In this document: positions 5,814 through 16,404 of the stretch, in pieces
Layout: every line of letters begins with the position of its first letter
Numbering within the stretch: the stretch's first letter is position 1
Source: Brachybacterium sp. P6-10-X1
Lineage (GTDB): Bacteria; Actinomycetota; Actinomycetes; Actinomycetales; Dermabacteraceae
Assembly: GCF_001969445.1 (NCBI RefSeq)
Contig: NZ_CP017297.1
Coordinates: 2,852,001 to 2,916,000, forward strand
DNA: 64,000 nt
Direction: 5' to 3'
The notes under the pieces: generated by a model
What the model was told of the DNA's origin: nothing
Seen by the model: the letters and a program-made list of their open reading frames with translations, nothing else
The model's database searches: none
Position numbers and translations under genes: made by a program

Positions 5814-6815
5814 TCACCCCGTGCCCCGCGGCCCGGTGGTGCCGCGCGGCACCAGGCGCACGGGCAGGGAACCCTCGACCGGGGTGCGGTGGGCCGAGGG
5901 ATTCTCGATCCGTCGCACGAGACGTTCGACGGCGGCGCGGCCCTGGGCCCGCTTCGGGGTGACGACTGTGGTCAACCCGCCGCCGATGAATCGTGAGAGG
6001 AGGATGTCGTCGTGGCCCATGACCGACAGCTCGGAGGGCACCTTGACCCCGGTCCGCAGCGCGGAGACCAGGAACCCGAAGGCGACCAGATCGTTGTAGC
6101 AGACCACGGCGTGCGGCAGGGAGTCGCGCAGCTCCTCGAAAGCCTGCTCCCCGCCGACGGTGGTCGGGGCGAAGGGACCGTGACGCTGGACGACCAGGCC
6201 GTTCGCGCGGGCGGCGGCGCGGGCGGCGCGCCACCGCTCGCTGTCGGACCAGGAGTTCACCGGGCCGGCGACGTAGGTGACCGTGCGGATGCCGTTCTCC
6301 GCGAGGTGCGCCATCGCCTGCTGCATCCCGTGCTCGTAGTCGGGCGTCACGGAGTCCAGGCCCGCGACGCGGCGGTTGAGGACGACGACGGGGATCCGCT
6401 TGGTGAGGTGGTTCAGCGTCGCGTCCGACAGCCGGGTGCCGGACAGCACGATCCCGTCGACGACGTTGATCGCGCTCTCGAGGCTCGAGCGCTCCCGCAC
6501 CTCGTCCTCCACGGTGTCGAGCAGGAGCATCAGGAAGTCCTGCTCGTGGGCGGATTCCTGCATGCCGGAGACGAGCTCGGCGAAGTAGGGGTTGGTGAGG
6601 TCGGCGATCTCGATGCCGAGGCGGTGGTGACGCTCGTCGCGCTCCTGAGCGTCAGGGGCGGCGGTGCGGTAGTTCAGCTGCTTGGCCGCGGCCATCACCG
6701 TGGCGTGCGTGGCGGCGCTGACGCGGCCGGGCCGGGAGAAGGCCCGGGAGACGGTCGACGGCGCGACCCCGGCGGTCTTGGCGACGTCGTAGATCGTCAC
6801 GCGCTTGTCCGCCAC
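5814..6815 (-). CDS. LacI-family transcriptional regulator
   Basis: A 333-residue repressor. The N-terminal helix-turn-helix is ITIYDVAKTAGVAPSTVSRAF-like (here VTIYDVAKTAGVAPSTVSRA, residues 6-25) followed by the hinge helix. The rest is a periplasmic-binding-protein-like sugar sensor, with landmarks GIEIADLTNPYFAE and VMGHDDILLSRFIGGGLTTV. It sits directly upstream of uxaC-uxuB in the same orientation, so it most likely senses a hexuronate or a pathway intermediate and represses that operon. The short spacer holds a candidate operator. Which sugar it binds cannot be read from sequence. Confidence 0.92.
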   Translation of the reverse strand: MADKRVTIYDVAKTAGVAPSTVSRAFSRPGRVSAATHATVMAAAKQLNYRTAAPDAQERDERHHRLGIEIADLTNPYFAELVSGMQESAHEQDFLMLLLDTVEDEVRERSSLESAINVVDGIVLSGTRLSDATLNHLTKRIPVVVLNRRVAGLDSVTPDYEHGMQQAMAHLAENGIRTVTYVAGPVNSWSDSERWRAARAAARANGLVVQRHGPFAPTTVGGEQAFEELRDSLPHAVVCYNDLVAFGFLVSALRTGVKVPSELSVMGHDDILLSRFIGGGLTTVVTPKRAQGRAAVERLVRRIENPSAHRTPVEGSLPVRLVPRGTTGPRGTG

Positions 6816-7003
6816 CTGGTCGCTCCGTCCTCGCCTGCGCGGCGATACGCTCTCGCTCCGGCACGGCGCCGGATGCTCCGCCGGGAACGGTCGTCGTCGC
6901 CGGGGCCCGGGAGAGGAACTCTACCCCGCCGCGGCGGCAACCTGCGGCAACCTCGAAGGTCGTGGGCTCGGACGTCGCCCGCGAGAGGCGTCACCGACAG
7001 TCG

Positions 7004-7035
7004 ACTATGCACAATAGTCGTCGATGTCGCATAGT
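7004..7035. promoter_or_regulatory. BlaI-type operator upstream of blaI-M56 unit
   Basis: Positions 7004-7018 read ACTAT-GCACA-ATAGT, a perfect palindrome (extended by one more G/C pair on each side). A weaker copy with only the right half ATAGT follows at 7021-7035, about one and a half helical turns on. BlaI-family repressors bind ACTA/TAGT-type dyads and usually repress their own gene. The same motif occurs twice at 11725-11755, in front of the DsbA-like operon. Confidence 0.7.
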
Positions 7036-7041
7036 GGTGTC

Positions 7042-7188
7042 ATGGACCGTACCGGGGAGTGGATGAGGCGCGCGCGGGAGACGCTGGCTCCGGCCGGCAC
7101 GGCGCTGCGCGCCGGGGGACCGCGCCAGGTGTCCGTGGCGATCACCGCGGGGCCGGCCGTCGGCCGACGGGCGGTGACTGCGTCGTGA
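7042..7188 (+). CDS. Small 48-residue ORF coupled to the BlaI gene
   Basis: An ATG six bases past the operator opens a 48-codon frame (MDRTGEWMRRARETL at the start), rich in Arg and Ala. Its TGA at 7186-7188 overlaps the GTG start of the BlaI gene at 7185 (GTGA). This explains why the repressor's apparent start is about 150 bases from its operator. There is no good ribosome-binding site before the ATG, which would suit a leaderless transcript. I do not recognise the product; it may be a leader peptide whose translation drives blaI. Confidence 0.4.
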   Translation: MDRTGEWMRRARETLAPAGTALRAGGPRQVSVAITAGPAVGRRAVTAS

Positions 7189-7589
7189 CTTCCGCCGACC
7201 CCTCCCCCGACCGTTTCGAGCCGGTTCCCCTGGGCGCCCTCGAGCAGCAGGTCATGGATGCCCTCTGGGACTCCGGCGAGCTGACGGTCCGCGAGGTGAT
7301 CACAGCGCTCGGCGACGTGCATGCCTATACGACCATCGCCACCGTGCTGACCCATCTCGGCCGCAAGGGCATGATCCGCTCGCGGCGCCAGGGCCGCTCC
7401 GTGCGCTACGCCGCCCGGCGCAGCCGTTCCGAGCATGCCGCGCGGGTGATGGAGCACGCCCTGTCGGCCAGCAGGGATCGTCGGGCCTCGATCGTGCACT
7501 TCGTGGAGACCATGGACCCCGGCGAGGTCGACCTGCTGCGCTCGTACCTCGACCAGCACCCCGCATCCGGGGGGCGGGACGACGGATGA
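7185..7589 (+). CDS. BlaI/MecI-family transcriptional repressor
   Basis: A 134-residue winged-helix repressor. The DNA-binding domain covers about residues 15-85: LGALEQQVMDALWDSGELTV, then YTTIATVLTHLGRKG, which is the typical recognition-helix region. The C-terminal helices, about residues 85-125, serve dimerisation. The GTG start is chosen because the family match begins there and it overlaps the preceding small ORF's stop; the frame is open upstream to 7059 without family similarity. It overlaps the M56 gene by four bases (ATGA). In this family the partner M56 protease inactivates the repressor. Confidence 0.9.
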   Translation: MTSADPSPDRFEPVPLGALEQQVMDALWDSGELTVREVITALGDVHAYTTIATVLTHLGRKGMIRSRRQGRSVRYAARRSRSEHAARVMEHALSASRDRRASIVHFVETMDPGEVDLLRSYLDQHPASGGRDDG

Positions 7590-8617
7590 GCGTGCTGACC
7601 CTCCCCCTGCTCATCGCGCTCCTGCTGGTCGCGAGCGCCGTGGCGGGCCCGGCGCTGCTGCGGGCAGGGTCTCCGCTGCTCATGCGGGTCCCCCGCACCG
7701 CCGTCGCGGTGCTGCTGACGTCCCTGGGCGCCTGGCTGCTCGCGGCCGCATCGCTCAGCCTGCTCCTGGCCTGGACGCTCACGGGACCGGATCTGCTGCC
7801 CGGGGCCGTCGGCGAGGTGTGTCAGCGGTGCCTGGACGCCTCCACGCCCTTCACCCCCGACCAGACCGTCGAGACCGCTCTGCCGATCGCGGTCCTCGTG
7901 GCCCTGCCGGTCCTCGGCGCCGTCACGGTGCTCGTCCTCGGGGCGCGGCGCGCGATCCGGGCCCGCTCCGCCGCCCGGGATGCGGCGCGGGACATCACGG
8001 CCGGCGCCCGCGCCATCCGCCTCGCCGGTCACGACGTGTGGCTGGTCCCCGACGAGGAGCCCGCGGCCTTCGCGCTGCCCGCCCGCCTCGGCGGGATCGT
8101 GGTCTCCGCCGGGCTGCGACGGGCCCTCAGCGACGCGGAGCTGAGGGCCGTTCTCGCCCACGAGGGCGCTCATCTGCGCCAGCGCCATCATCTGGTCCTG
8201 TCGGCGACGCGCTCCCTCGCGGAGCCGCTGCGCTGGATCCCGCTCGCGGCGGCGATCGCCGAGGCGGTCCCGCGATATCTCGAGATCGCGGCCGACGAGA
8301 GCGCCCGCCGATGTTCCGGGACCCGTTCGCTGGCCAGTGCTCTGCTGAAGATCGGCGCCCCGGTCCGCCCCGCGACCCCGACGGCCGCTGCCCCCGCGAC
8401 GGCCACCGCGTCGGCGGGTCCGCAGCTGCATGCAGGTCTGCTGCACGCGGGTGGCCCGGACCGCATCCGCCATCTGGTCGCCCCGGCCGGGGCGGGATCG
8501 GCTCTGCTGCCGACGGCGCTGCTGGCCGGGCTGATGCTCGTCCTGACCGCCGTCATCGTCGCCGTGCACGGCCCGTACCTGCAGGTGCTGCTCGCGGGGT
8601 GCGCGATCCCCGGGTGA
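7586..8617 (+). CDS. M56-family (BlaR1/MecR1-like) membrane zinc metallopeptidase
   Basis: A 343-residue integral membrane protease. Hydrophobic segments occur near residues 1-25, 35-65, 95-120 and 300-335. The zinc site is HEGAH at residues 192-196 (HExxH type), with the third ligand expected in the following EIAADESARR helix. Classical BlaR1 has an extracellular penicillin-binding sensor domain; this protein ends shortly after its last membrane helix and has none. It is therefore a sensorless anti-repressor that presumably responds to something in or at the membrane and cleaves the BlaI protein encoded just upstream. Confidence 0.88.
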   Translation: MSVLTLPLLIALLLVASAVAGPALLRAGSPLLMRVPRTAVAVLLTSLGAWLLAAASLSLLLAWTLTGPDLLPGAVGEVCQRCLDASTPFTPDQTVETALPIAVLVALPVLGAVTVLVLGARRAIRARSAARDAARDITAGARAIRLAGHDVWLVPDEEPAAFALPARLGGIVVSAGLRRALSDAELRAVLAHEGAHLRQRHHLVLSATRSLAEPLRWIPLAAAIAEAVPRYLEIAADESARRCSGTRSLASALLKIGAPVRPATPTAAAPATATASAGPQLHAGLLHAGGPDRIRHLVAPAGAGSALLPTALLAGLMLVLTAVIVAVHGPYLQVLLAGCAIPG

Positions 8618-8640
8618 GGCGGTCGGCGTCGCGCCGCACC

Positions 8641-8740
8641 GAGCCACCCGGCATCGCTCCGTGCCGAGCCACCCGGCATCGGTCGGTGCCGAGCCGCCCG
8701 GCATCGGTCCGTGCCGAACCACCCGACGTCGGTCAGCGAG
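8641..8740. repeat. Four tandem copies of a 25-bp unit
   Basis: The unit gagccacccggcatcgctcc-gtgcc repeats at 8641, 8666, 8691 and 8716, and the last copy is the most diverged. It fills the gap between the convergent M56 and lipoprotein genes. Confidence 0.93.
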
Positions 8741-8807
8741 GGGACGCCCCGTGCCGGCCGGTCCCGGGATATCGGGCACGAGTCCGTGCCGCGGCGCCGC
8801 GCACCGG

Positions 8808-10028
8808 TCAGCGGGTGCCGTAGTCCTCGTCGAAGGTCGTGGTGACCAGGTATCGGGGCCCGCCGACGTCCACCGCGGCCGCCGACTCACCGGAGAAGAT
8901 CTCGGGGACGGCGAGCGCGCCCTCCTGATCGACGTCATAGGGCTGGACCATGCGTCCCTGCGAGGTGTCCAGCACCACCAGGGTGCCCTCCTCCTGCCGC
9001 TGGGCGTAGGCCAGCCGCTCGCCGGCGGTGAGGAAGAGCAGCTGTTCGGGGTCCTCGTGCCGCCAGCTCTCCGAGCCGTCGGGGTCGAGTCCTCGGACCA
9101 TGGCCCCGGCGGCGACGACCGTGACGTCCAGGACGTGGTCGTGGGCCACCCGCTCGGCGTCGCGGGCGATCACGGCCCCGTCGGCGAGGTCGATCACGGT
9201 CCCGGCCTCGCGGCCGTCGCCGAGGACGGCGTACCCGGTGTTCGGATCGATGCGGGGGCCGATGGCGCTCCGCTGCGGGTCGAGCCCCTCGGGAAGCGTG
9301 ATCCGCCACCGCTGTTCGCCGTCGTCCGCCGCGAGCGCGACCAGCTCGCCGCCGTCGATCGTGACGACGAGTCCGCCGTGCTCGGCCAGGATCCTGCCGC
9401 CGTCGAGCTCCTCCTCGGTCAGCGCGATCTCGCCGGTCCCCGCGGCCAGGGCGGTGCGCGTCTGCGACGAGCCCATCGGAGAGGTCTCCGGCGCGGAGTA
9501 CACCAGCCCCTGCGCGGCCTGCGGGCCCGGCACCTCGACCGGTCCCCAGCGCACCTCGGCGGTGCGCAGGTCGTAGCCGGTCAGGCTCGTGGCCAGCGGG
9601 GCATCGCCGTCCGTGGCCGTGTCCGCGAGCACCGCGATCGCAGCCCCGTCGGCGTCAGCGGAGAGGCAGAATCCGGTGCAGCTGAGCGGTCGCTGCGCCT
9701 GCCACAGCAGGGTGCCGTCCTCGGCGACGGCCCGGAAGCGCAGGCGATCGCCGTCGTCGGAGTACCCCAGGAAGATCCCGTCCCGCTCGAGGGGCGTCGC
9801 GGTCCACCCCGGATCGACCACGATCATCGGGGTCATCTCCAGCGGCAGGCGCAGCTCGGTGACGTCCACCGTCTCGGCGCGCTCCTCCAGCACGGTCGGA
9901 GCGGGGTCGACGTCGACGTCCGGCCCCGTCCCGTGCCCGCTCGCGGTTCCCGCGGGCTGGTCGGGGTCGCAGGCGGCGAGGGCGGCCAGCCCCAACGGCA
10001 GGGTGAGGACGAGGGCGCGCCGCCTCAT
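8808..10028 (-). CDS. Lipoprotein with PQQ-type beta-propeller repeats
   Basis: A 406-residue exported lipoprotein. An n-region MRRR and a hydrophobic stretch lead to the lipobox LAAC with Cys20. The mature part shows repeated blades of the PQQ-binding-like type, for example DGTLLWQAQRPL, TGYDLRTAEVRWGP, ADDGEQRWRITLPEG and GLDPDGSESWRHEDPE. Such propellers act as scaffolds; no enzyme motif is evident. It is the last gene of the dsbA-ccdA-like operon and overlaps its neighbour by four bases, suggesting a role with secreted thiol proteins. Function remains unknown. Confidence 0.75.
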   Translation of the reverse strand: MRRRALVLTLPLGLAALAACDPDQPAGTASGHGTGPDVDVDPAPTVLEERAETVDVTELRLPLEMTPMIVVDPGWTATPLERDGIFLGYSDDGDRLRFRAVAEDGTLLWQAQRPLSCTGFCLSADADGAAIAVLADTATDGDAPLATSLTGYDLRTAEVRWGPVEVPGPQAAQGLVYSAPETSPMGSSQTRTALAAGTGEIALTEEELDGGRILAEHGGLVVTIDGGELVALAADDGEQRWRITLPEGLDPQRSAIGPRIDPNTGYAVLGDGREAGTVIDLADGAVIARDAERVAHDHVLDVTVVAAGAMVRGLDPDGSESWRHEDPEQLLFLTAGERLAYAQRQEEGTLVVLDTSQGRMVQPYDVDQEGALAVPEIFSGESAAAVDVGGPRYLVTTTFDEDYGTR

Positions 10029-10897
10029 CGGCGACCCGTCCGCGGAAGGACGGGTCCGACCTCGACGCGTCGGCGGCGCCGTCGATCATGGCGCCGCCAC
10101 AGGGCCAGGGCGAGCAGCCCGAGGACGGCGATCACCGCGATCTGGACGCCCGTCCCGCTGAGCGCGCTGCTGCGGGACTGCCAGCTCGCCAGCACGCTGG
10201 TGGGGATCAGGGAGGGCAGGGTGACCAGGCCGTTGGTGGTCCAGAACAGGACGCCCAGGGCGATGATCACCGCGCCGGTGAGGACGGTGGTGGTGTGCAG
10301 CGTCCGGCCCAGCACGGTGAACTCCCGGCCCCGCAGCAGCGAGCGGGTCCGGACGCTGAGCCGGTCCCACACGGCTGCGAGCACCATCAGGGGCACCACC
10401 ATGCCGGCACCATAGACGGCCAGCAGGATCGCGGCCAGGACCATGCTCCCCTGCCCCATGGCGAGGGTGAGCACGGCGCCCAGGATGGGGCCGGCGCAGA
10501 ACCCGGCCACTCCGCCCACGGCGCCGAGCAGGATCGTGCGCGGCAGTCCGCTGCCCCGCGAGGAGGCCTGCTGCGCGCGGTCGATGCCGGGCAGCGCCCG
10601 CGAGAGGTCGAAGCCGAGGCCGAGCGCGTGCATCACCCCGAGCACGATGAGGATCACGGAAGTGACGGTGACCAGCGCGGAGCGGTGCTGGGCGAACATC
10701 GTCCCGAGGGCGCCCGCGCCGATGCCGAGCGGGACCAGGGTGAGCACCAGGCCGAGGTAGAAGGCGAGGGCGTGCGGGAGCAGGCGGGCGCGGCTGGTGA
10801 CGGTGGCGGCGAAGAAGCCGGGCAGCAGGAACGCCCCGCACGGGCTCAGCAGGGCGAGCGCGCCGCCCAGGAAGGAGGTCAGGATCCCGACCTCCAC
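10025..10897 (-). CDS. CcdA/DsbD-family thiol-disulfide transport protein
   Basis: A 290-residue polytopic membrane protein of the cytochrome c biogenesis CcdA family, which passes reducing equivalents across the membrane. The two family cysteines are present: Cys20 in LLSPCGAFLLPG and Cys134 in VAGFCAGPILGAVL. About seven to eight hydrophobic segments follow, and the C-terminus is basic. The GTG start at 10897 lies one base after the DsbA-like gene's stop, and the gene overlaps the lipoprotein gene by four bases. Paired with a CPYC oxidoreductase, it likely keeps that protein's redox state. Confidence 0.85.
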   Translation of the reverse strand: MEVGILTSFLGGALALLSPCGAFLLPGFFAATVTSRARLLPHALAFYLGLVLTLVPLGIGAGALGTMFAQHRSALVTVTSVILIVLGVMHALGLGFDLSRALPGIDRAQQASSRGSGLPRTILLGAVGGVAGFCAGPILGAVLTLAMGQGSMVLAAILLAVYGAGMVVPLMVLAAVWDRLSVRTRSLLRGREFTVLGRTLHTTTVLTGAVIIALGVLFWTTNGLVTLPSLIPTSVLASWQSRSSALSGTGVQIAVIAVLGLLALALWRRHDRRRRRRVEVGPVLPRTGRR

Positions 10898-10898
10898 C

Positions 10899-11678
10899 TC
10901 AGCCCTCCGCCTCGGCGAGCGCGTCGTCGAGCGCGTCGGTGAAGACCTCGGTGGGCTGGGCGCCCGCCATCGGCGTGCCGTCGAGGAGGAAGGCCGGTGT
11001 GGACATGGCACCCAGCTCGATGCCCTGCCGGGCGTTGGCGTCGATGGTCGCCGCGACCTCCTCGGAGTTCAGGTCCGCGGTGAACTGCTCGGTGTCCAGA
11101 TCGAGGTCGCCGGCCAGCTCGACCAGCGAGTCCTCGTCGAGCTCCTGCGGGGAGCGGATCTCGCCGTCCGCGAAGAGGGCGTCGTGGTAGTCCTGGAAGC
11201 GGTCCTGCTTCGCGGCGGCGAGAACCGCACGGGCCGCCCGCTCGGACTCGTCCCCGTAGATGTTCACGTCGCGGTATTCGATGCGCAGCTCCCCGCGCTC
11301 GACGTACTCGCGCAGGACGGGCAGGGTCTCGTGCGACCACTGGGCGCAGTAGGGGCACTGGAAGTCGGAGAACATCACCAGCACCACCGGGGCGTCGACC
11401 GGGCCCTCGGCCAGGAGATCGTCGGGATCGCGGGCCTCCTCCTCGCTGAGGTCCGGCTGCGCCACCTGGTCGGGGTGCTCGACCGCGCCGGGCTGCTCGG
11501 TGCCCTCGGCCGGGGCGGCGGTGCCGGCCGCCTGCTCGGAGTCGTCGTCGCCGCCCATCCAGAGCGCGGCCGCGATCAGCGCGGCCACCACGGCGAGGAT
11601 CACCAGCGGAGCCAGCCAGCGGCTGCGCCCGCCGGAGGGCTGCTCGGCCGGTGTCCCGGTCGTCTGCGGGTCAGGCAT
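10899..11678 (-). CDS. DsbA-like membrane-anchored thioredoxin-fold oxidoreductase
   Basis: A 259-residue protein with an N-terminal membrane anchor (about residues 21-41), an acidic linker, and a DsbA-type thioredoxin domain outside the cell. The active site is Cys108-Pro-Tyr-Cys111 in FSDFQCPYCAQWS. The cis-Pro loop is seen as MSTPAFLLDG. The ATG at 11678 is preferred because GGAGAA lies 7 bases upstream; a GTG five codons earlier is the alternative. It heads a three-gene operon, and its promoter region carries two ACTAT-N5-ATAGT palindromes like the one before the blaI gene. Confidence 0.88.
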   Translation of the reverse strand: MPDPQTTGTPAEQPSGGRSRWLAPLVILAVVAALIAAALWMGGDDDSEQAAGTAAPAEGTEQPGAVEHPDQVAQPDLSEEEARDPDDLLAEGPVDAPVVLVMFSDFQCPYCAQWSHETLPVLREYVERGELRIEYRDVNIYGDESERAARAVLAAAKQDRFQDYHDALFADGEIRSPQELDEDSLVELAGDLDLDTEQFTADLNSEEVAATIDANARQGIELGAMSTPAFLLDGTPMAGAQPTEVFTDALDDALAEAEG

Positions 11679-11724
11679 CCGTTCTCCGATCACGCGGGGG
11701 AACGGCGCACCGCGGCACCGTTCG

Positions 11725-11755
11725 ACTATCCATCATAGTAACTATGGTGGATAGT
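11725..11755. promoter_or_regulatory. Double BlaI-type operator before the DsbA-like operon
   Basis: Two adjacent 15-bp dyads, ACTAT-CCATC-ATAGT at 11725-11739 and ACTAT-GGTGG-ATAGT at 11741-11755, are separated by one base and are nearly mirror images. They lie 47-77 bases before the DsbA-like start codon. The match to 7004-7018 indicates common control by the BlaI protein. Confidence 0.7.
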
Positions 11756-11798
11756 ACGCAGATCGATGCGCTCGACTCAACCTCGGGTGACCGGCCGC

Positions 11799-12119
11799 TC
11801 AGTGCGCGCCGCCCAGCTCGATGAGCAGCACGCCGGCGACGATCAGCCCCATGCCCCCGAGCATCGTCGGGGTCAGCGCCTCGCGGAACAGGACGCGGGA
11901 GAGCAGGGCGGTCAGCACGATGCCGGCCGCGGCCCAGACGCCGTAGGCGATGCCCAGCGGCATGCCGGTGGCGAGCGAGCCGGACAGGAAGGTGAAGGCG
12001 ACGACATAGCCGAGCACCACCAGCAGGTAGGCGGCGCGCCGACCGTCGGCGGCGACCCGCAGCGACAGGGTCGCGCCGACCTCGCTGACCACCGCGCCGA
12101 TCAGCAGGATCCAGCTCAT
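11799..12119 (-). CDS. Small multidrug resistance (SMR) efflux protein, second subunit
   Basis: A 106-residue protein with four transmembrane segments of the EmrE/SugE superfamily. The essential membrane Glu is present as SEVGATLSLR in the first helix, and the GIAYGVWAAAGIVLT signature lies in the third. It overlaps the preceding SMR gene by four bases (ATGA). Two adjacent unequal SMR genes usually form a heterodimeric pump. It is the last gene of a tetR-smr-smr operon. Confidence 0.9.
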   Translation of the reverse strand: MSWILLIGAVVSEVGATLSLRVAADGRRAAYLLVVLGYVVAFTFLSGSLATGMPLGIAYGVWAAAGIVLTALLSRVLFREALTPTMLGGMGLIVAGVLLIELGGAH

Positions 12120-12502
12120 GGCGCCCCCTCCCTTCTCGCAGCCGGGAGATCGGGGGTCGACCCCGCGCCCTCGCGCCGTCGGGCCCGGTGCGAGCCGATC
12201 TCGACCACGGCGACGCCGGCGGCGATCAGCACGACGCCGCTGATCTTCATCGCGGTGAAGGCCTCGCCGAACAGCACCGCCGAGAGCGCGGCGGTGAGCA
12301 CCACGCCGCAGGCGGCCCAGATGCCGTACGCGACGCCGAGCGCCATCCCGCGCCGCAGCACGAGCGCGAGGCAGCCGAAGGAGAGGGCGTAGCCGATCAC
12401 GACCACGATGTAGAGCAGGGGGCGATCGAGCGCCCCGCGCAGGGAGAGGGTCGCGGTGACCTCGCTGAGGATCGCCCCGACCAGCAGCAGCCAGGCGATC
12501 AC
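12116..12502 (-). CDS. Small multidrug resistance (SMR) efflux protein, first subunit
   Basis: A 128-residue four-helix SMR protein with the key Glu in LSEVTATLSLRGA and the signature GVAYGIWAACGVVLT. It carries a charged C-terminal tail of about 20 residues that its partner lacks. The GTG start at 12502 overlaps the TetR gene's stop (GTGA), so translation is coupled. It probably pairs with the following SMR protein to export cationic compounds or guanidinium-like molecules; the substrate is not evident. Confidence 0.88.
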   Translation of the reverse strand: MIAWLLLVGAILSEVTATLSLRGALDRPLLYIVVVIGYALSFGCLALVLRRGMALGVAYGIWAACGVVLTAALSAVLFGEAFTAMKISGVVLIAAGVAVVEIGSHRARRREGAGSTPDLPAARREGAP

Positions 12503-13086
12503 GCCTCGCCCCCGAGCAGGCCCAGGGCGAGGGCGTGGACGGAGCGAGCATCCTCGGCAGGCAGCTCGAGCTGGCCGGTGGCACGGTCGAACCAGAGCCC
12601 GTCGGCCATCAGGCGCACCGCGAGCAGGCGCTGCCGGGTGACGACGGGAGTGCCGGCGGGGATCGAGAGCCACCCCGCCAACTGCTCCTGCCAGCGCGCC
12701 GTGAGGCTCACGCGGAGCTTCGGATCGGCGAAGATCACCAGGTCCGCCGGGGAGAGCCGCGCGTGGCAGGCCCAGTCGAGGTAGGCGAGGAATCGGCGGT
12801 GGGCGGGCACGGCGGCGAGGTCCTGGACGCCGGTGCCGTGGACGGCCTCGATCTGGGCGAGCACCTCGCGCTCGTAGCGGTCGGCGATGTGGTCCAGCAC
12901 GGCCCGCAGCAGGGCCTCCTTGGTGGCGAAGTGGTACATCAGCCCGGTCTTGGTGACCCCGGCGGCGCGGGCCGCCGAGTCGAGGGTCAGCGTGCCGTCG
13001 ACGCCGAGATGGGACTCGGCGGCATCCAGCATCGCCATCCGGGCCGACGGGCGGTGGGCGGGTCGGGGCGAGGGATCGGGCGCCAT
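12499..13086 (-). CDS. TetR/AcrR-family regulator of the SMR operon
   Basis: A 195-residue repressor with an N-terminal helix-turn-helix at about residues 18-65 (MLDAAESHLGVDGTLTLDSA, then GVTKTGLMYHFATKEALLRA) and a helical ligand-binding C-terminus. It is first in an operon with the two SMR genes and overlaps the next gene by four bases, so it probably represses the operon and is released by an exported compound. An imperfect dyad lies 35-57 bases upstream of its start. Confidence 0.9.
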   Translation of the reverse strand: MAPDPSPRPAHRPSARMAMLDAAESHLGVDGTLTLDSAARAAGVTKTGLMYHFATKEALLRAVLDHIADRYEREVLAQIEAVHGTGVQDLAAVPAHRRFLAYLDWACHARLSPADLVIFADPKLRVSLTARWQEQLAGWLSIPAGTPVVTRQRLLAVRLMADGLWFDRATGQLELPAEDARSVHALALGLLGGEA

Positions 13087-13120
13087 GAGGACTCCTCCGG
13101 GACGGCGGGCCCTCGCTACT

Positions 13121-13143
13121 TTACTGGCCTCTTGGTCAAGTAA
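13121..13143. promoter_or_regulatory. Candidate TetR operator
   Basis: TTACTGGCC and GGTCAAGTAA form an imperfect inverted repeat around TCTT. A TTGACC box on the minus strand falls inside it, so a bound repressor would block the promoter of the tetR-SMR operon. The site lies directly between the TetR gene and the Doc relic. Confidence 0.5.
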
Positions 13144-13146
13144 GCA

Positions 13147-13326
13147 ATGGGGCGCGCACTCACGGTCCTGACGCCCTGCGGTATCACAGCTGTCGTCGTG
13201 TCCTATGGGCTCAACGACATCGATCTCGATGCCCCGGATGACGAGGCCTATGACCTGGTCATCGCCGTGGCGACGGGCGATGTGAGCCTCAAGGAGATCG
13301 CCGCAGCACTTTCCGACTGGCGGTGA
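13147..13326 (+). pseudogene. C-terminal relic of a Doc (death-on-curing) toxin
   Basis: The 59-codon frame ends with DIDLDAPDDEAYDLVIAV, ATGDVSLKEIAAAL and SDWR, which reads like the C-terminal third of Doc-family Fic-fold toxins. The first 20 codons do not match, and the catalytic HPFxDGNKR block expected just upstream is absent. No Phd antitoxin lies next to it. It abuts the TetR operator, so the efflux operon or its promoter probably replaced the 5' part of the gene. Identification rests on memory of the family pattern. Confidence 0.55.
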
Positions 13327-13353
13327 GGCTCCCGCCCCGGGCGGCGCGATTCG

Positions 13354-14106
13354 TCAGCCGGCGCTCTCTCCCGGCCCCGGCGCCCAGCGGGCGATCTGGG
13401 CGGCGAGGTGCCCGGCGCCGTAGCCGTTGTCGATGTTGACCACCCCGATGCCCGGCGCGCAGGCGGAGAGCATCGTCAACACGGCGGCGCGGCCGCCCTC
13501 GGCGACGCCGTAGCCGACGGAGGTGGGCAGGGCGACCACGGGGGCGCTGATCTGCCCGGCGACCACGGTGGGCAGGGCGCCGTCCATGCCGGCGGCGACC
13601 ACCACGCAGGCCGCCTCGCGCAGCTCCGGCAGGCGGGCGAGCAAGCGGTGGAGGCCGGCGATGCCGATGTCCGCGATCAGGCGGGTGGGGCGGCCGAGGT
13701 AGCGGGCGGTGAGCTCGGCCTCACGGGCCACAGGCAGGTCGCTGGTGCCGGCGCAGGCGATGATCACCTCTCCCCCGCTCGCCGCGGGCGGAGCGGCGGG
13801 CCAGACCAGCAGGTGGGCATCGGCCGCGTGGAAGGCGTCGGGCAGCACGTCGAGGATCGCCGCGGCCCGGGCCTCGTCGGCGCGGGTGAACAGCACGGGG
13901 CCGAGGCCGTCGTGGCCGGCGACGCCCAGCCGCGCGTACTCGGCGGCGATGGTGGCCACCTGCTCGACGCTCTTGGCGTCGCACAGCACGGCCTCGGGGG
14001 CGCCGCGGCGGCGCGAGCGGTCCAGGTCCAGCTCGAGGACGCCCTCGATCCGACCGTCCGGCTCGACGTGCCGCCCGCCCGGCGGGGCCGGCTCAGCTCC
14101 GGTCAC
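13354..14106 (-). CDS. larB: LarB: pyridinium carboxylase/hydrolase of nickel-pincer cofactor synthesis
   Basis: A 250-residue protein whose C-terminal half is related to PurE (AIR carboxylase). Landmarks are CAGTSDLPVAREAELTA, VVAAGMDGALPTVVAGQ and ALPTSVGYGVAEGG. LarB carboxylates nicotinic acid adenine dinucleotide and hydrolyses its phosphoanhydride, the first step toward the nickel-pincer cofactor of LarA. The GTG start at 14106 lies inside the end of larE (14-base overlap). It is the last gene of a larA-larE-larB operon. The GC-rich region downstream shows no obvious terminator. Confidence 0.9.
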   Translation of the reverse strand: MTGAEPAPPGGRHVEPDGRIEGVLELDLDRSRRRGAPEAVLCDAKSVEQVATIAAEYARLGVAGHDGLGPVLFTRADEARAAAILDVLPDAFHAADAHLLVWPAAPPAASGGEVIIACAGTSDLPVAREAELTARYLGRPTRLIADIGIAGLHRLLARLPELREAACVVVAAGMDGALPTVVAGQISAPVVALPTSVGYGVAEGGRAAVLTMLSACAPGIGVVNIDNGYGAGHLAAQIARWAPGPGESAG

Positions 14107-15073
14107 GATGGCTCGAGATGATCTGCAGGGAGAACAGGCCGGAACGGATGCCGTCGAGGTCGATCGTGACGTGGGCGAATCCCGCCTCCTTGCCGGCGGT
14201 GACCAGCGCGGTGCGGATCTCCGACTCCATGGCGCGGGCCAGTTCCGCCGTGGGCAGCTCGATGCGACCCACCTCGCCGTGGTGGCGCACCCGGCAGTCG
14301 CTGAAGCCCTGCTCGTAGACGGCGTCCTCGAGGTCGTCGATCTGGCGCAGCTTCTCGGGGGTGACGGACTGCCCGAAGGGGACGCGGGACGCCAGGCACG
14401 GAGCGGCGGGCTTGTCCGCGACCGGCAGGGAGAGCGCGCGGGCGACGTCACGGACCTGCTGCTTGGCCATCCCGGCGCTCGACAGCGGGCGCAGCACCCG
14501 GTGGCGGGTGGCGGCGCCGGAGCCGGGACGGTCGCGGCGCCGGGCGTCGTCGGCGTTCTCCCCGTAGGCGACGGCGTCGAGCCGGTGCGCACCGACGATG
14601 TCGTCGTCGATGCGGGTGAACAGCTCGTCCTTGCAGTGGAAGCAGCGCGATGCGTCGTTCTTCTGGTAGTCCGGGTTCTCGCCCTCGTGGGTGGGGATCT
14701 CGACGACGTCGATGCCGATCACGGCGGCGACCCGGTGGGCCAGGCGGCGTTCGCGGCGTGCGAGCGACGGTGAGACGCCGAGCAGGGCGACGACGTTCTC
14801 GGCGCCGAGGGCGCGCACGGCCAGCGCCAGCAGGGTCGCGGAGTCGACGCCGCCGGAATAGGCGACGCCGAGGCGCTGGACGGTGCTGAGCTGGGCGGAT
14901 ACCTCGTCGGCGAGGGTGAGAGCCTCGCCCTCGAGCGCCTCGGGCGTCATGCCCTCGACGTCGAATCCGGTGCGGCCGGGGTGGAACAGCGAGGTGGGGG
15001 CCGACGGGTCGGCGCCGCCGCCGGCGGCCGGGGCGGTCAGCGGGCGGGTGGTGTGCTGGGGGTTCGCGGTCAC
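14093..15073 (-). CDS. larE: LarE: ATP-dependent sulfur transferase of nickel-pincer cofactor synthesis
   Basis: A 326-residue PP-loop enzyme that adenylates the LarB product and installs sulfur on it. The PP-loop SGGVDSATLL lies near residue 57. Further conserved blocks are CFHCKDELF, AYGENADDARRRDRPG and APCLASRVPFG; the family's sulfur-donating cysteine is expected in the last. The GTG start overlaps the larA stop by four bases (GTGA). An N-terminal extension of about 35 residues (VTANPQHTTRPLT onward) has low complexity. Several ATGs exist inside, but the overlap supports the GTG. Confidence 0.9.
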   Translation of the reverse strand: MTANPQHTTRPLTAPAAGGGADPSAPTSLFHPGRTGFDVEGMTPEALEGEALTLADEVSAQLSTVQRLGVAYSGGVDSATLLALAVRALGAENVVALLGVSPSLARRERRLAHRVAAVIGIDVVEIPTHEGENPDYQKNDASRCFHCKDELFTRIDDDIVGAHRLDAVAYGENADDARRRDRPGSGAATRHRVLRPLSSAGMAKQQVRDVARALSLPVADKPAAPCLASRVPFGQSVTPEKLRQIDDLEDAVYEQGFSDCRVRHHGEVGRIELPTAELARAMESEIRTALVTAGKEAGFAHVTIDLDGIRSGLFSLQIISSHRDRS

Positions 15074-16404
15074 AGGGACTGGCGCTCCTCGGCGAGTCGG
15101 AACAGGACTTCTCCCGCGTGGTCGATGACGAGGGTGTCGGGATCCTCGCGCAGGGCCTCGATGTCCAGGGAGGCGGGATCCTGGTACAGGACGTTGTACT
15201 CCTCGCACTCCTGCTGCGAGATCGACGTGGCGAAGTAGCGGTTCACCCGTTGCTTCTCCTCGCCGGTGGCGGGATCGTAGGTGCCCAGGCCGGTGACGTG
15301 CGTGGAGTGGGCGAGCTCGCCCCAGGGATGGTCCTTGAACCGGTCCCACTGCTTCGTGAAGTACTCGATGTTGTGATACCCGATGTCGCGCAGGCCGGGG
15401 TGCATGGCGGCGACCTCGGTGATGTGCGGGGCGTAGATGATCACGTCGCCGCCGTCGGCGCAGACGGGCTCGGACTTGTAGAAGCCCTTGGCGCCGGTCC
15501 ACATGTCGTCGTACATCTCCGGGACCAGCGCCACGATGCGCTTGTACGGCGTGTCGACGTAGGTGATGTGGGTCTGCGCGGAGATCTTCGCGCTGGCGGC
15601 CCAGGCGGCCTGCGGGTCGCCGTAGGCGACGGCGCCGAGATCCGCCCCGCCCTCCTTGACGTCCATGGTGAAGCAGTACTTCTCGGTGGTCACGAGCTCG
15701 CTGGCGGCGTCGATGAGCTGGCGCACCGGGGTGATGCCGAGGGTGCCGATGATGCGGCTGGCGGTGATGAGCGCGCCCACCCAGTGGGAGATGTCGATGA
15801 CGTCGTGCACCGAGCAGCCGGGGAAGAAGTACTTGTTCCCACCGGAGAAGCCGACCACCTCGTGCGGGAAGACGGGGCCGACGATGAGGTTCACGTCCGA
15901 TTCGACGCACAGCCGGTTGATCTGCACGCGCATGGGGACGTCGGTGAGCAGGCCGCCGGTGAGCGCGGCGATGCGCTCGGCGGAGATCTCGCCGAGGTCC
16001 GCGATCTGGTCCGGATCGTCCCAGGCGTGGTTGACCACGGTCCATTCGGGGTAGGTGGCCTGCGCGCCGCGCTCGGTGGAGCCCAGCAGCGTGTCGATCG
16101 CGCCGTCGTCCATGGCGGCGTGGGTGCCCAGCGCGATCAGCACGGTCACCGAGGCGGCACGACCGGCGAGCGCGTCGTGGATCGCGGGCAGCACCTTGGG
16201 CAGCGGGACGGAGCGGGTGCCGTCGGGGACGATCAGGCAGACGGACTTGCCGTCGTAGTCGGTGCCGGCGAGCTGCTCGGTGACGAAGTCCCGGATCTGC
16301 TGGTCGGTGAGCGTCGAGTCCGGGCCGCCGAGCAGGGCGGCGCGCTCCGCGAGTCCCTCGGGGATCGGCTCGATGGTCGGCGTCGTCGCAGTCTGCTCGC
16401 TCAT
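15070..16404 (-). CDS. larA: LarA-family nickel-pincer racemase/epimerase
   Basis: A 444-residue DUF2088/LarA protein. Family motifs are VPDGTRSVPLPKVLP, ALGTHAAMDD, FPHEVVGFSGGNKYFFPG and DISHWVG. The His of LGTH, the His of FPHE, the Lys of GGNKYF and the His of ISHW match the four residues that contact the nickel-pincer cofactor in lactate racemase. The ATG at 16404 is favoured; the frame extends upstream but without family similarity. Lactate racemase is the best-known activity, but LarA homologues act on several 2-hydroxy acids, so the substrate is open. Confidence 0.88.
   Translation of the reverse strand: MSEQTATTPTIEPIPEGLAERAALLGGPDSTLTDQQIRDFVTEQLAGTDYDGKSVCLIVPDGTRSVPLPKVLPAIHDALAGRAASVTVLIALGTHAAMDDGAIDTLLGSTERGAQATYPEWTVVNHAWDDPDQIADLGEISAERIAALTGGLLTDVPMRVQINRLCVESDVNLIVGPVFPHEVVGFSGGNKYFFPGCSVHDVIDISHWVGALITASRIIGTLGITPVRQLIDAASELVTTEKYCFTMDVKEGGADLGAVAYGDPQAAWAASAKISAQTHITYVDTPYKRIVALVPEMYDDMWTGAKGFYKSEPVCADGGDVIIYAPHITEVAAMHPGLRDIGYHNIEYFTKQWDRFKDHPWGELAHSTHVTGLGTYDPATGEEKQRVNRYFATSISQQECEEYNVLYQDPASLDIEALREDPDTLVIDHAGEVLFRLAEERQSL

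Follow-up and report, generated by a model that had tools for sequence, protein, structure and literature searches.

The window analysed here is the whole 64,000-nucleotide stretch of Brachybacterium sp. P6-10-X1 contig NZ_CP017297.1 from position 2,852,001 to 2,916,000, and all coordinates below count from its first base. It carries two separate, convergent operons that appear to be joined in one regulon under a BlaI-type repressor. The first, on the forward strand, holds the gene of that BlaI/MecI/CopY-family repressor (7185..7589; PF03965 at 90.7 bits against a cut-off of 22.6), followed by the gene of an M56-type membrane zinc protease without a penicillin-binding domain (7586..8617), whose product has HExxH, ExxxD and four hydrophobic regions. 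The second, on the reverse strand, encodes a membrane-anchored DsbA/thioredoxin_4 protein with a CPYC motif (10899..11678; PF13462 at 90.8 bits, PF01323 at 70.2 bits), a CcdA-type thiol electron carrier (10025..10897, its start codon assumed to be the GTG at 10897; PF02683 at 38.8 bits against a cut-off of 27.1, E 8e-10) and, as its last gene, a lipoprotein with a PQQ-type beta-propeller (8808..10028; PF13360, E 1.2e-14).

Both promoters carry the dyad ACTAT-N5-ATAGT. A preliminary description of this DNA had placed three copies here, and a motif scan found all three exactly where it had put them. The first, ACTATGCACAATAGT (7004..7018), lies upstream of the repressor-protease unit; the other two, ACTATCCATCATAGT (11725..11739) and ACTATGGTGGATAGT (11741..11755), stand 16 bp apart in the promoter of dsbA, whose start is at 11678. 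No strand is assigned to any of these BlaI-type operator dyads. A degenerate second dyad (7021..7035, forward strand, two mismatches) follows the first in a 17-bp register, and its right half, CATAGT (7030-7035), six bases ahead of the ATG at 7042, resembles the -10 box of a leaderless promoter. Comparable spacing from the -10 element to the start codon is found in leaderless actinobacterial promoters. Scanning 6800-12200 for consensus sigma-70 promoters and terminators gave no matches. The ATG at 7042 opens a 48-amino-acid open reading frame (ORF; 7042..7188, forward strand), which overlaps the GTG start of blaI by 4 bases. The dyad at 7004, described earlier as preceding the blaI-M56 unit, is thus upstream of the transcription unit but not directly before blaI, as this ORF intervenes.

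Searches of this genome and of related genomes, as the preliminary description had proposed, tie the motif to this repressor. The exact dyad occurs three times in the 4,385,603-base genome, always in the window, and nowhere else does even a version with one mismatch appear; the same pattern reversed, used as a control, has five places with up to one mismatch. From the base composition of the window, 0.08 exact sites would be expected in a genome of this size. Chance as the source of the motif was rejected on this excess and on its co-occurrence with BlaI in the genus and in the loci from other genera described below.

Within Brachybacterium we compared 38 genomes, taking E 2e-40 or better as a close BlaI. 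BlaI matches occur in 18 and close ones in 11, and the exact motif is present in precisely these 11 and in none of the other 27. Seven of the latter have distant BlaI homologues only, and since they too lack the exact motif, we rejected the dyad as a general site of the BlaI family. An exact dyad stands 5' of dsbA in 11/11 genomes with this BlaI (tandem and exact in 4), and the promoter of the blaI unit has one with at most one mismatch in 10 of them (8 exact, 2 with one mismatch). Ten genus genomes have the dsbA-ccdA-lipoprotein operon but not this BlaI, and their fetched regions (7-11 kb) hold no dyad within one mismatch. Conservation of the motif upstream of the DsbA operon in relatives is therefore borne out in every genus member with this BlaI, and it recurs in many genera.

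BlaI might instead control its own operon only, the dsbA dyads belonging to another regulator or being a relic of an ancestral divergent promoter. Most relatives do share one divergent promoter, so that the split, convergent layout of Brachybacterium is likely derived. However, the dsbA promoter, although more than 4 kb from the blaI promoter, has kept its exact dyads in every genus genome with this BlaI, the exact motif is absent where this BlaI is absent, and the window BlaI is the sole PF03965 match in its genome. We consider this alternative very improbable.

Two other places in the genus may be recorded here. At L087 (G017:C1:124000-138000, about 5984-7291) behind a 43%-identical BlaI comes an M56 gene that is broken across two frames; there is no dyad within one mismatch, and the dsb operon of the same genome lies elsewhere (L089). 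In L084 (G026:C201), from a metagenome-assembled genome listed with about 6% contamination, a third exact dyad (1293-1307) stands about 25 bases ahead of an ORF resembling a luciferase-like monooxygenase.

The ORF at 7042 is, by alignment with G009 (whose BlaI is 92% identical), an in-frame remnant left by one internal deletion in the gene of a membrane protein that we call MP. Full-length MP (186-207 amino acids) is encoded in 8 of the 11 genus genomes, between the dyad and blaI, and has an invariant CPVC and a distal cysteine. Remnants of 48 (window), 59 (G037) and 19 codons (G015) account for the other three, and the stop of each overlaps the blaI start codon. Each of the 11 genus loci examined keeps GCATAGTG a few bases 5' of the MP start codon. 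Searches of Pfam and NCBIfam gave no match to MP over cut-off, PHROGs gave none, and no solved structure reached E<1; kinship with CcdA was rejected by profile comparison (probability 1%), though the part of PMC6305408 that bears on a similar gene set lists two CcdA proteins. Relatives of MP also match haloarchaeal plasmids (Natrinema 5 records, Haloterrigena 2) in a search of a plasmid collection; this CPVC membrane protein may reach beyond bacteria.

Outside the genus, genome contigs were scanned with a profile of the MP alignment, and the best 80 of 101 relatives, from many Actinomycetota genera, were kept as named loci (L098-L177). The genus genomes and the named loci overlap (L098 is a contig of G028), so the two sets are not independent, and the locus counts are not counts of independent events, because the loci are related and some are near-identical islands (L130, L134, L135 and L136 are counted separately). 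The commonest layout is divergent, with (lipoprotein)-CcdA-DsbA and MP-BlaI-M56 on either side of tandem dyads. MP, BlaI, M56, DsbA and CcdA are all present in 51/80 loci, one of which, L144, has a distant BlaI and M56 (32 and 38% identity). Both DsbA cysteines are found in 70/70 aligned proteins, and those of CcdA (C22 and C136 of window protein P0004) in 64 (one gap) and 65 of 65; in the genus loci the lipoprotein gene adjoins ccdA.

A dyad with at most one mismatch lies 5' of MP in 61 of the 63 loci with BlaI (54 exact) versus 2 of the 17 without it, and the contigs of these two (L159, L175) end before the expected blaI position. Shuffled upstream regions gave a mean of 0.13 loci with a dyad and a maximum of 2 in 100 shuffles. 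Exact dyads number 89 inside the 80 regions of 310 bp versus 26 elsewhere in 1,195,946 bases. Of these 26, 14 lie no more than 66 bp from a dsbA start, one is some 245 bp 5' of a blaI, ten make up a third, tandem site on five related islands, and the last stands singly in L144. Pairs within one mismatch and less than 60 bp apart in the named loci are spaced at 17 bp in 47/78 cases and at 16 bp in 23/78 (70/78 together). An ATAGT placed 4-8 bases before an in-frame start codon, as in the window, occurs in 38/63 named loci with BlaI, exactly at the aligned start in 28 of them. Finally, the 17-bp tandem motif (up to one mismatch) was found in 2/393 genomes of the class, both times at this gene set, a count that speaks to the specificity of the motif rather than to the frequency of the system because 16-bp spacings, such as that of the window, escape the pattern. 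These comparisons strongly support a single BlaI regulon that links the M56 unit with the DsbA-CcdA operon, and we regard the two-operon regulon predicted from them as very probably real.

On five islands in different genera (L130, L133, L134, L135 and L136, at 13.6-13.9 kb in each) and on a related plasmid stretch (L231, 13862-13892), the third tandem dyad precedes a gene for an unnamed membrane-anchored protein or for an AraC-family regulator; an ImmA/IrrE-type gene is annotated nearby on L231. The gene at this site is a possible mobile third member of the regulon.

The window protease is 343 residues long, with HEGAH at residues 192-196 and E233xxxD237, in keeping with the HExxH plus ExxxD definition of the zinc-protease motif taken from the relevant part of PMC9834060. 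H192, E193, H196, E233 and D237 are invariant in 48 aligned M56 proteins. Hydropathy puts hydrophobic regions at 1-29, 37-67, 93-124 and 301-342, peaks that would suit a four-helix, N-out/C-out topology in which the protease domain lies between helices 3 and 4. Pfam has no match to a penicillin-binding sensor domain in this protein, and none is to be expected, since the chain ends with its last hydrophobic segment. Three cysteines stand out: C79-Q-R-C82 (codons 7820..7831, forward strand), a CxxC between hydrophobic regions 2 and 3 at the position of the EL1 loop of BlaR1, and C339 (codon 8600..8602, forward strand), close to the C-terminus, within the last hydrophobic region or immediately behind it. 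Among the aligned M56 proteins of these loci, window included, C79 is kept in 55/55, C82 in 54/55 (the exception is L144) and C339 in 51/55 (3 gaps, 1 Thr).

None of 41 control M56 proteins has a C..C pair in the 180 residues before HExxH. Of these controls, 24 came from a draw spread evenly over the class, 10 were genus proteins and 7 were paralogues from genomes reached through the named loci; most are paired with BlaI, three have no BlaI neighbour, L016 is frame-broken, and L024-L026 look alike, so that the set of 41 includes apparent duplicates. No frame fitting the pattern was obtained from five of the 30 class loci or from genus locus L021. L181, a class match with CxxC, is counted as a member of the present system because MP and this BlaI adjoin its M56.

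According to PMC9834060, BlaR1 has N-out/C-out topology, with EL1 (residues 56-96) joining helices 2 and 3 on the extracellular side, and signalling is proposed to begin when beta-lactam displaces this loop. Should the window M56 have the same fold, its cysteines would be on the outer side of the membrane, and the CxxC pair would belong to the signalling loop. The protease had been called sensorless; the penicillin sensor is indeed absent and HExxH present, but the clade-specific CxxC in the predicted outer loop and the C-terminal cysteine are candidate sensors.

A different reading of the same regulon would have M56 sense membrane or cell-wall stress, or beta-lactams indirectly, with cysteines that are only structural. 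The sensor-less BlaR of Mycobacterium tuberculosis, for which the same may be true and which is reported to act on BlaI in the portion of PMC5473688 consulted, lends it some plausibility. However, CxxC separates 54/55 of the present proteins from 0/41 others and goes with thiol-redox neighbours, and no beta-lactamase or penicillin-binding protein (PBP) match was found by Pfam among the five proteins of the two operons. Indirect stress sensing thus seems to us distinctly unlikely, and we lean, with moderate confidence, towards sensing through the M56 cysteines.

Loci without the protease offer a second view of these cysteines. In eight BlaI-bearing loci the roughly 1.8 kb that follow blaI contain no HExxH frame, and searches of the eight whole genomes found no close relative of this M56: the best E-values were 3e-27 to 1e-21 in four Arthrobacter-type genomes, whose matches have no CxxC, and about 2e-4 in the other four, versus at most 4e-120 in three genomes that do encode it. 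In 8/8 of these loci BlaI itself has a cysteine pair. This fits, without proving, a shift of cysteine sensing between protease and repressor.

What the regulon would do for the cell depends on the direction of electron flow. CcdA-type proteins pass electrons outward from cytoplasmic thioredoxin, and the operon is therefore not obviously one for oxidative folding; a reductive or sulfur-handling role of the DsbA-CcdA module is at least as likely as an oxidative one. Persulfide-dioxygenase/rhodanese-type, CsoR-like, DUF302 or DsrE matches accompany 17 of the 53 long loci (at least 14 kb; 27 shorter loci were left out), 16 with BlaI and 1 without, versus 0/39 control stretches, each 18.5 kb long (from 39 class genomes, of which 11 belong to the genus), a comparison that is partly circular because the queries were themselves taken from the case loci and from plasmid L232. 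With only about a third of the long loci in its support, we keep the sulfur link secondary. On both counts, the derepression of oxidative protein folding put forward in the preliminary description is not established.

MP matches occur in 61 plasmid records, and the three examined all have MP-DsbA-CcdA beside rhodanese and TauE genes, with an MBL hydrolase in two and a DUF302 gene in two. The Streptomyces plasmid NZ_CP108570.1 (L233), with rhodanese and TauE adjoining, has a CsoR-like regulator, no annotated BlaI and no dyad; the same core module apparently stands there under a different thiol repressor. The CsoR-like proteins, seen in 15/80 loci and on two of the three plasmids, each contain two cysteines.

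Alternatively, the same regulon could respond to a soft metal (copper, mercury, cadmium or arsenite) that binds to the extracytoplasmic cysteines, with DsbA-CcdA repairing the thiols which the metal has damaged. Such repair is the task of the Scs systems of Gram-negative bacteria, and CopY repressors, a metal-responsive branch of the BlaI family, carry a C-terminal cysteine motif. CxxC and a third cysteine could make a thiolate metal site, a putative copper ATPase (cluster 24; recognized by eye, with a His-rich start) is found in 4/80 loci, and CopY_TcrY (TIGR02698) is the best NCBIfam match of the window BlaI, at a sub-threshold 35.2 bits versus a cut-off of 121.95. The window BlaI has zero cysteines, however, and hence no CopY motif, persulfide-type neighbours are commoner than the ATPase, and the nearby CsoR-like proteins lack the histidine that copper CsoR uses and by which it is recognized. 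We judge a metal signal unlikely and prefer a thiol or sulfane sulfur.

The simplest model is an envelope response to thiol or sulfur stress that includes negative feedback. We propose that BlaI dimers occupy the tandem dyads, 16-17 bp apart, over both promoters and thereby repress the (membrane protein)-blaI-M56 and dsbA-ccdA-(lipoprotein) units. M56 would be a membrane zinc protease with its active site on the cytoplasmic side; its extracytoplasmic cysteines, the CxxC of the EL1-like loop and the C-terminal one, would register a thiol or sulfur change outside the membrane, upon which M56 would inactivate BlaI, possibly by cleavage. Derepression would then raise the levels of the DsbA-like protein, CcdA and, where intact, the CPVC membrane protein, and these would restore the thiol or sulfane-sulfur balance. 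That M56 relieves repression by BlaI is, in our estimate, probable, and a BlaI regulon relieved by M56 upon an extracytoplasmic thiol or sulfur signal is the best explanation of the whole, with a probability of roughly 0.6. It is tempting to go further and to see here a BlaR1 chassis in which a cysteine triad has replaced the penicillin-sensing domain, sensing extracytoplasmic thiol or sulfane sulfur and controlling a horizontally spread DsbA-CcdA-CPVC-membrane-protein module, with BlaI itself sensing where the protease is missing, in parallel to the two-cysteine persulfide repressors SqrR/BigR and CstR. This extension is tentative, and we give it slightly less than even odds.

Several observations weigh against this interpretation. 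Binding by BlaI, changes in expression and cleavage by M56 are predictions, as are the membrane topology and the cysteine signal with its chemistry; what the sequences show directly are the dyads and how exclusive they are, their association with BlaI, the shared gene order and the cysteines peculiar to this clade. The blaI promoter of G015 has no dyad within one mismatch and keeps only the -10-like half, and among the named loci L113 and L166, both with BlaI, have none 5' of MP; in L113 an exact dyad stands 49 bases ahead of dsbA, the first gene of the co-directional row dsbA-ccdA-MP-blaI-M56, and L166 lacks the dyad altogether. The tandem motif, at 2/393 genomes, is rare. The protease scores 24.7 bits with PF05569 (M56), under the curated cut-off of 31 that any match exceeds in only 35/246 class-draw genomes, while PF01435 (M48) reaches 42.6 over 20.3, and the best solved relatives of its profile are M48 proteases (HtpX, E 6.5e-7). 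Its conserved cysteines could be structural or metal-binding. The cysteine pair of BlaI sits at two different places in two lineages, and one of these pairs is seen as well in L137 and L153, where M56 is retained; of the 55 BlaI proteins accompanied by an M56, 39 are free of cysteine, 5 contain a single one and 11 at least two. MP is dispensable, having been lost in three genus genomes. Lastly, no persulfide-type genes were found near 36/53 long loci, and the window was outside that search.

The staphylococcal BlaR1-BlaI and MecR1-MecI pairs are alike in placing a repressor of the same Pfam family beside a membrane gluzincin with HExxH and ExxxD, and BlaR1 in having a loop between helices 2 and 3 outside the membrane. 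Unlike them, the present system has a loop CxxC and a C-terminal cysteine in place of a penicillin-binding sensor domain and would target DsbA-CcdA genes instead of beta-lactamase or PBP2a, and the sequence match is very weak (BlaR1 8exp against the M56 profile, E 0.36, over the HExxH region only). For the repressor, the closest solved relative is BlaI of M. tuberculosis: a profile of 11 relatives matches 2g9w at E 5e-23, and 1p6r as well. The BlaI-BlaR pair of that species (Rv1846c-Rv1845c) also has a protease without a sensor domain and, according to the passages of PMC5473688 on this regulon, targets blaC, ATP synthase and cytochrome bd genes, to which the corresponding passages of PMC12565901 add ftsQ and Rv1303. 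M56 proteins drawn from the class differ from ours in having no CxxC; Rv1845c itself was not among them.

Closest in gene content is the CYT module of Arthrobacter plasmids pA58H2 and pA40H2, given in an excerpt of PMC6305408 as a COG3682 regulator, CcdA, a DsbA-family protein and DsrE beside a sulfur-dioxygenase module. The gene set is the same, and pA58H2 (our L232) has two exact dyads; in contrast, its genes are described, as far as that excerpt goes, as cytochrome or sulfur genes without analysis of an operator or regulon, no M56 is annotated after blaI on pA58H2, and its BlaI has two cysteines. The excerpted portions of PMC7533328, on a CsoR-like sulfane-sulfur sensor of Streptomyces coelicolor with the same neighbour genes, and of PMC5480029, on Staphylococcus aureus, show CsoR/CstR repressor control of persulfide dioxygenase, sulfurtransferase/rhodanese and TauE, gene kinds found beside about a third of our long loci. 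Those circuits use cytoplasmic CsoR-family repressors, whereas here BlaI and a membrane protease would act, with DsbA and CcdA as core targets. In open-access full text, with most subscription journals outside its reach, we found neither the operator nor the regulon nor the M56 cysteines described, the excerpt of PMC6305408 being the only related notice.

In many actinobacteria, then, a BlaI-protease switch appears to act on genes for secreted thiol-redox proteins; a switch familiar mainly from antibiotic resistance would here have a new role. M56 matches are found in 167/246 class genomes, and BlaI-M56 pairs are common in actinobacteria and present in M. tuberculosis; this clade offers a three-cysteine candidate sensor, a defined operator and a small regulon through which the signal read by sensor-less M56 proteases could be approached. 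If the model holds, the antibiotic-resistance switch would be a particular application of a general chassis able to read redox or sulfur chemistry through its outer loop, and the regulon would provide a regulatory handle on the envelope thiol systems of Gram-positive bacteria. The analysis also points to an unnamed, conserved family of CPVC membrane proteins, part of it beside sulfur genes.

Beyond the dyads, the reverse strand of the window (11799-16404) encodes, as judged by eye, an SMR-like transporter (11799-12119), a TetR-type regulator (12499-13086) and three proteins resembling LarB, LarE and LarA, the lactate-racemase maturation factors and enzyme. LarE-type proteins are sulfur transferases.

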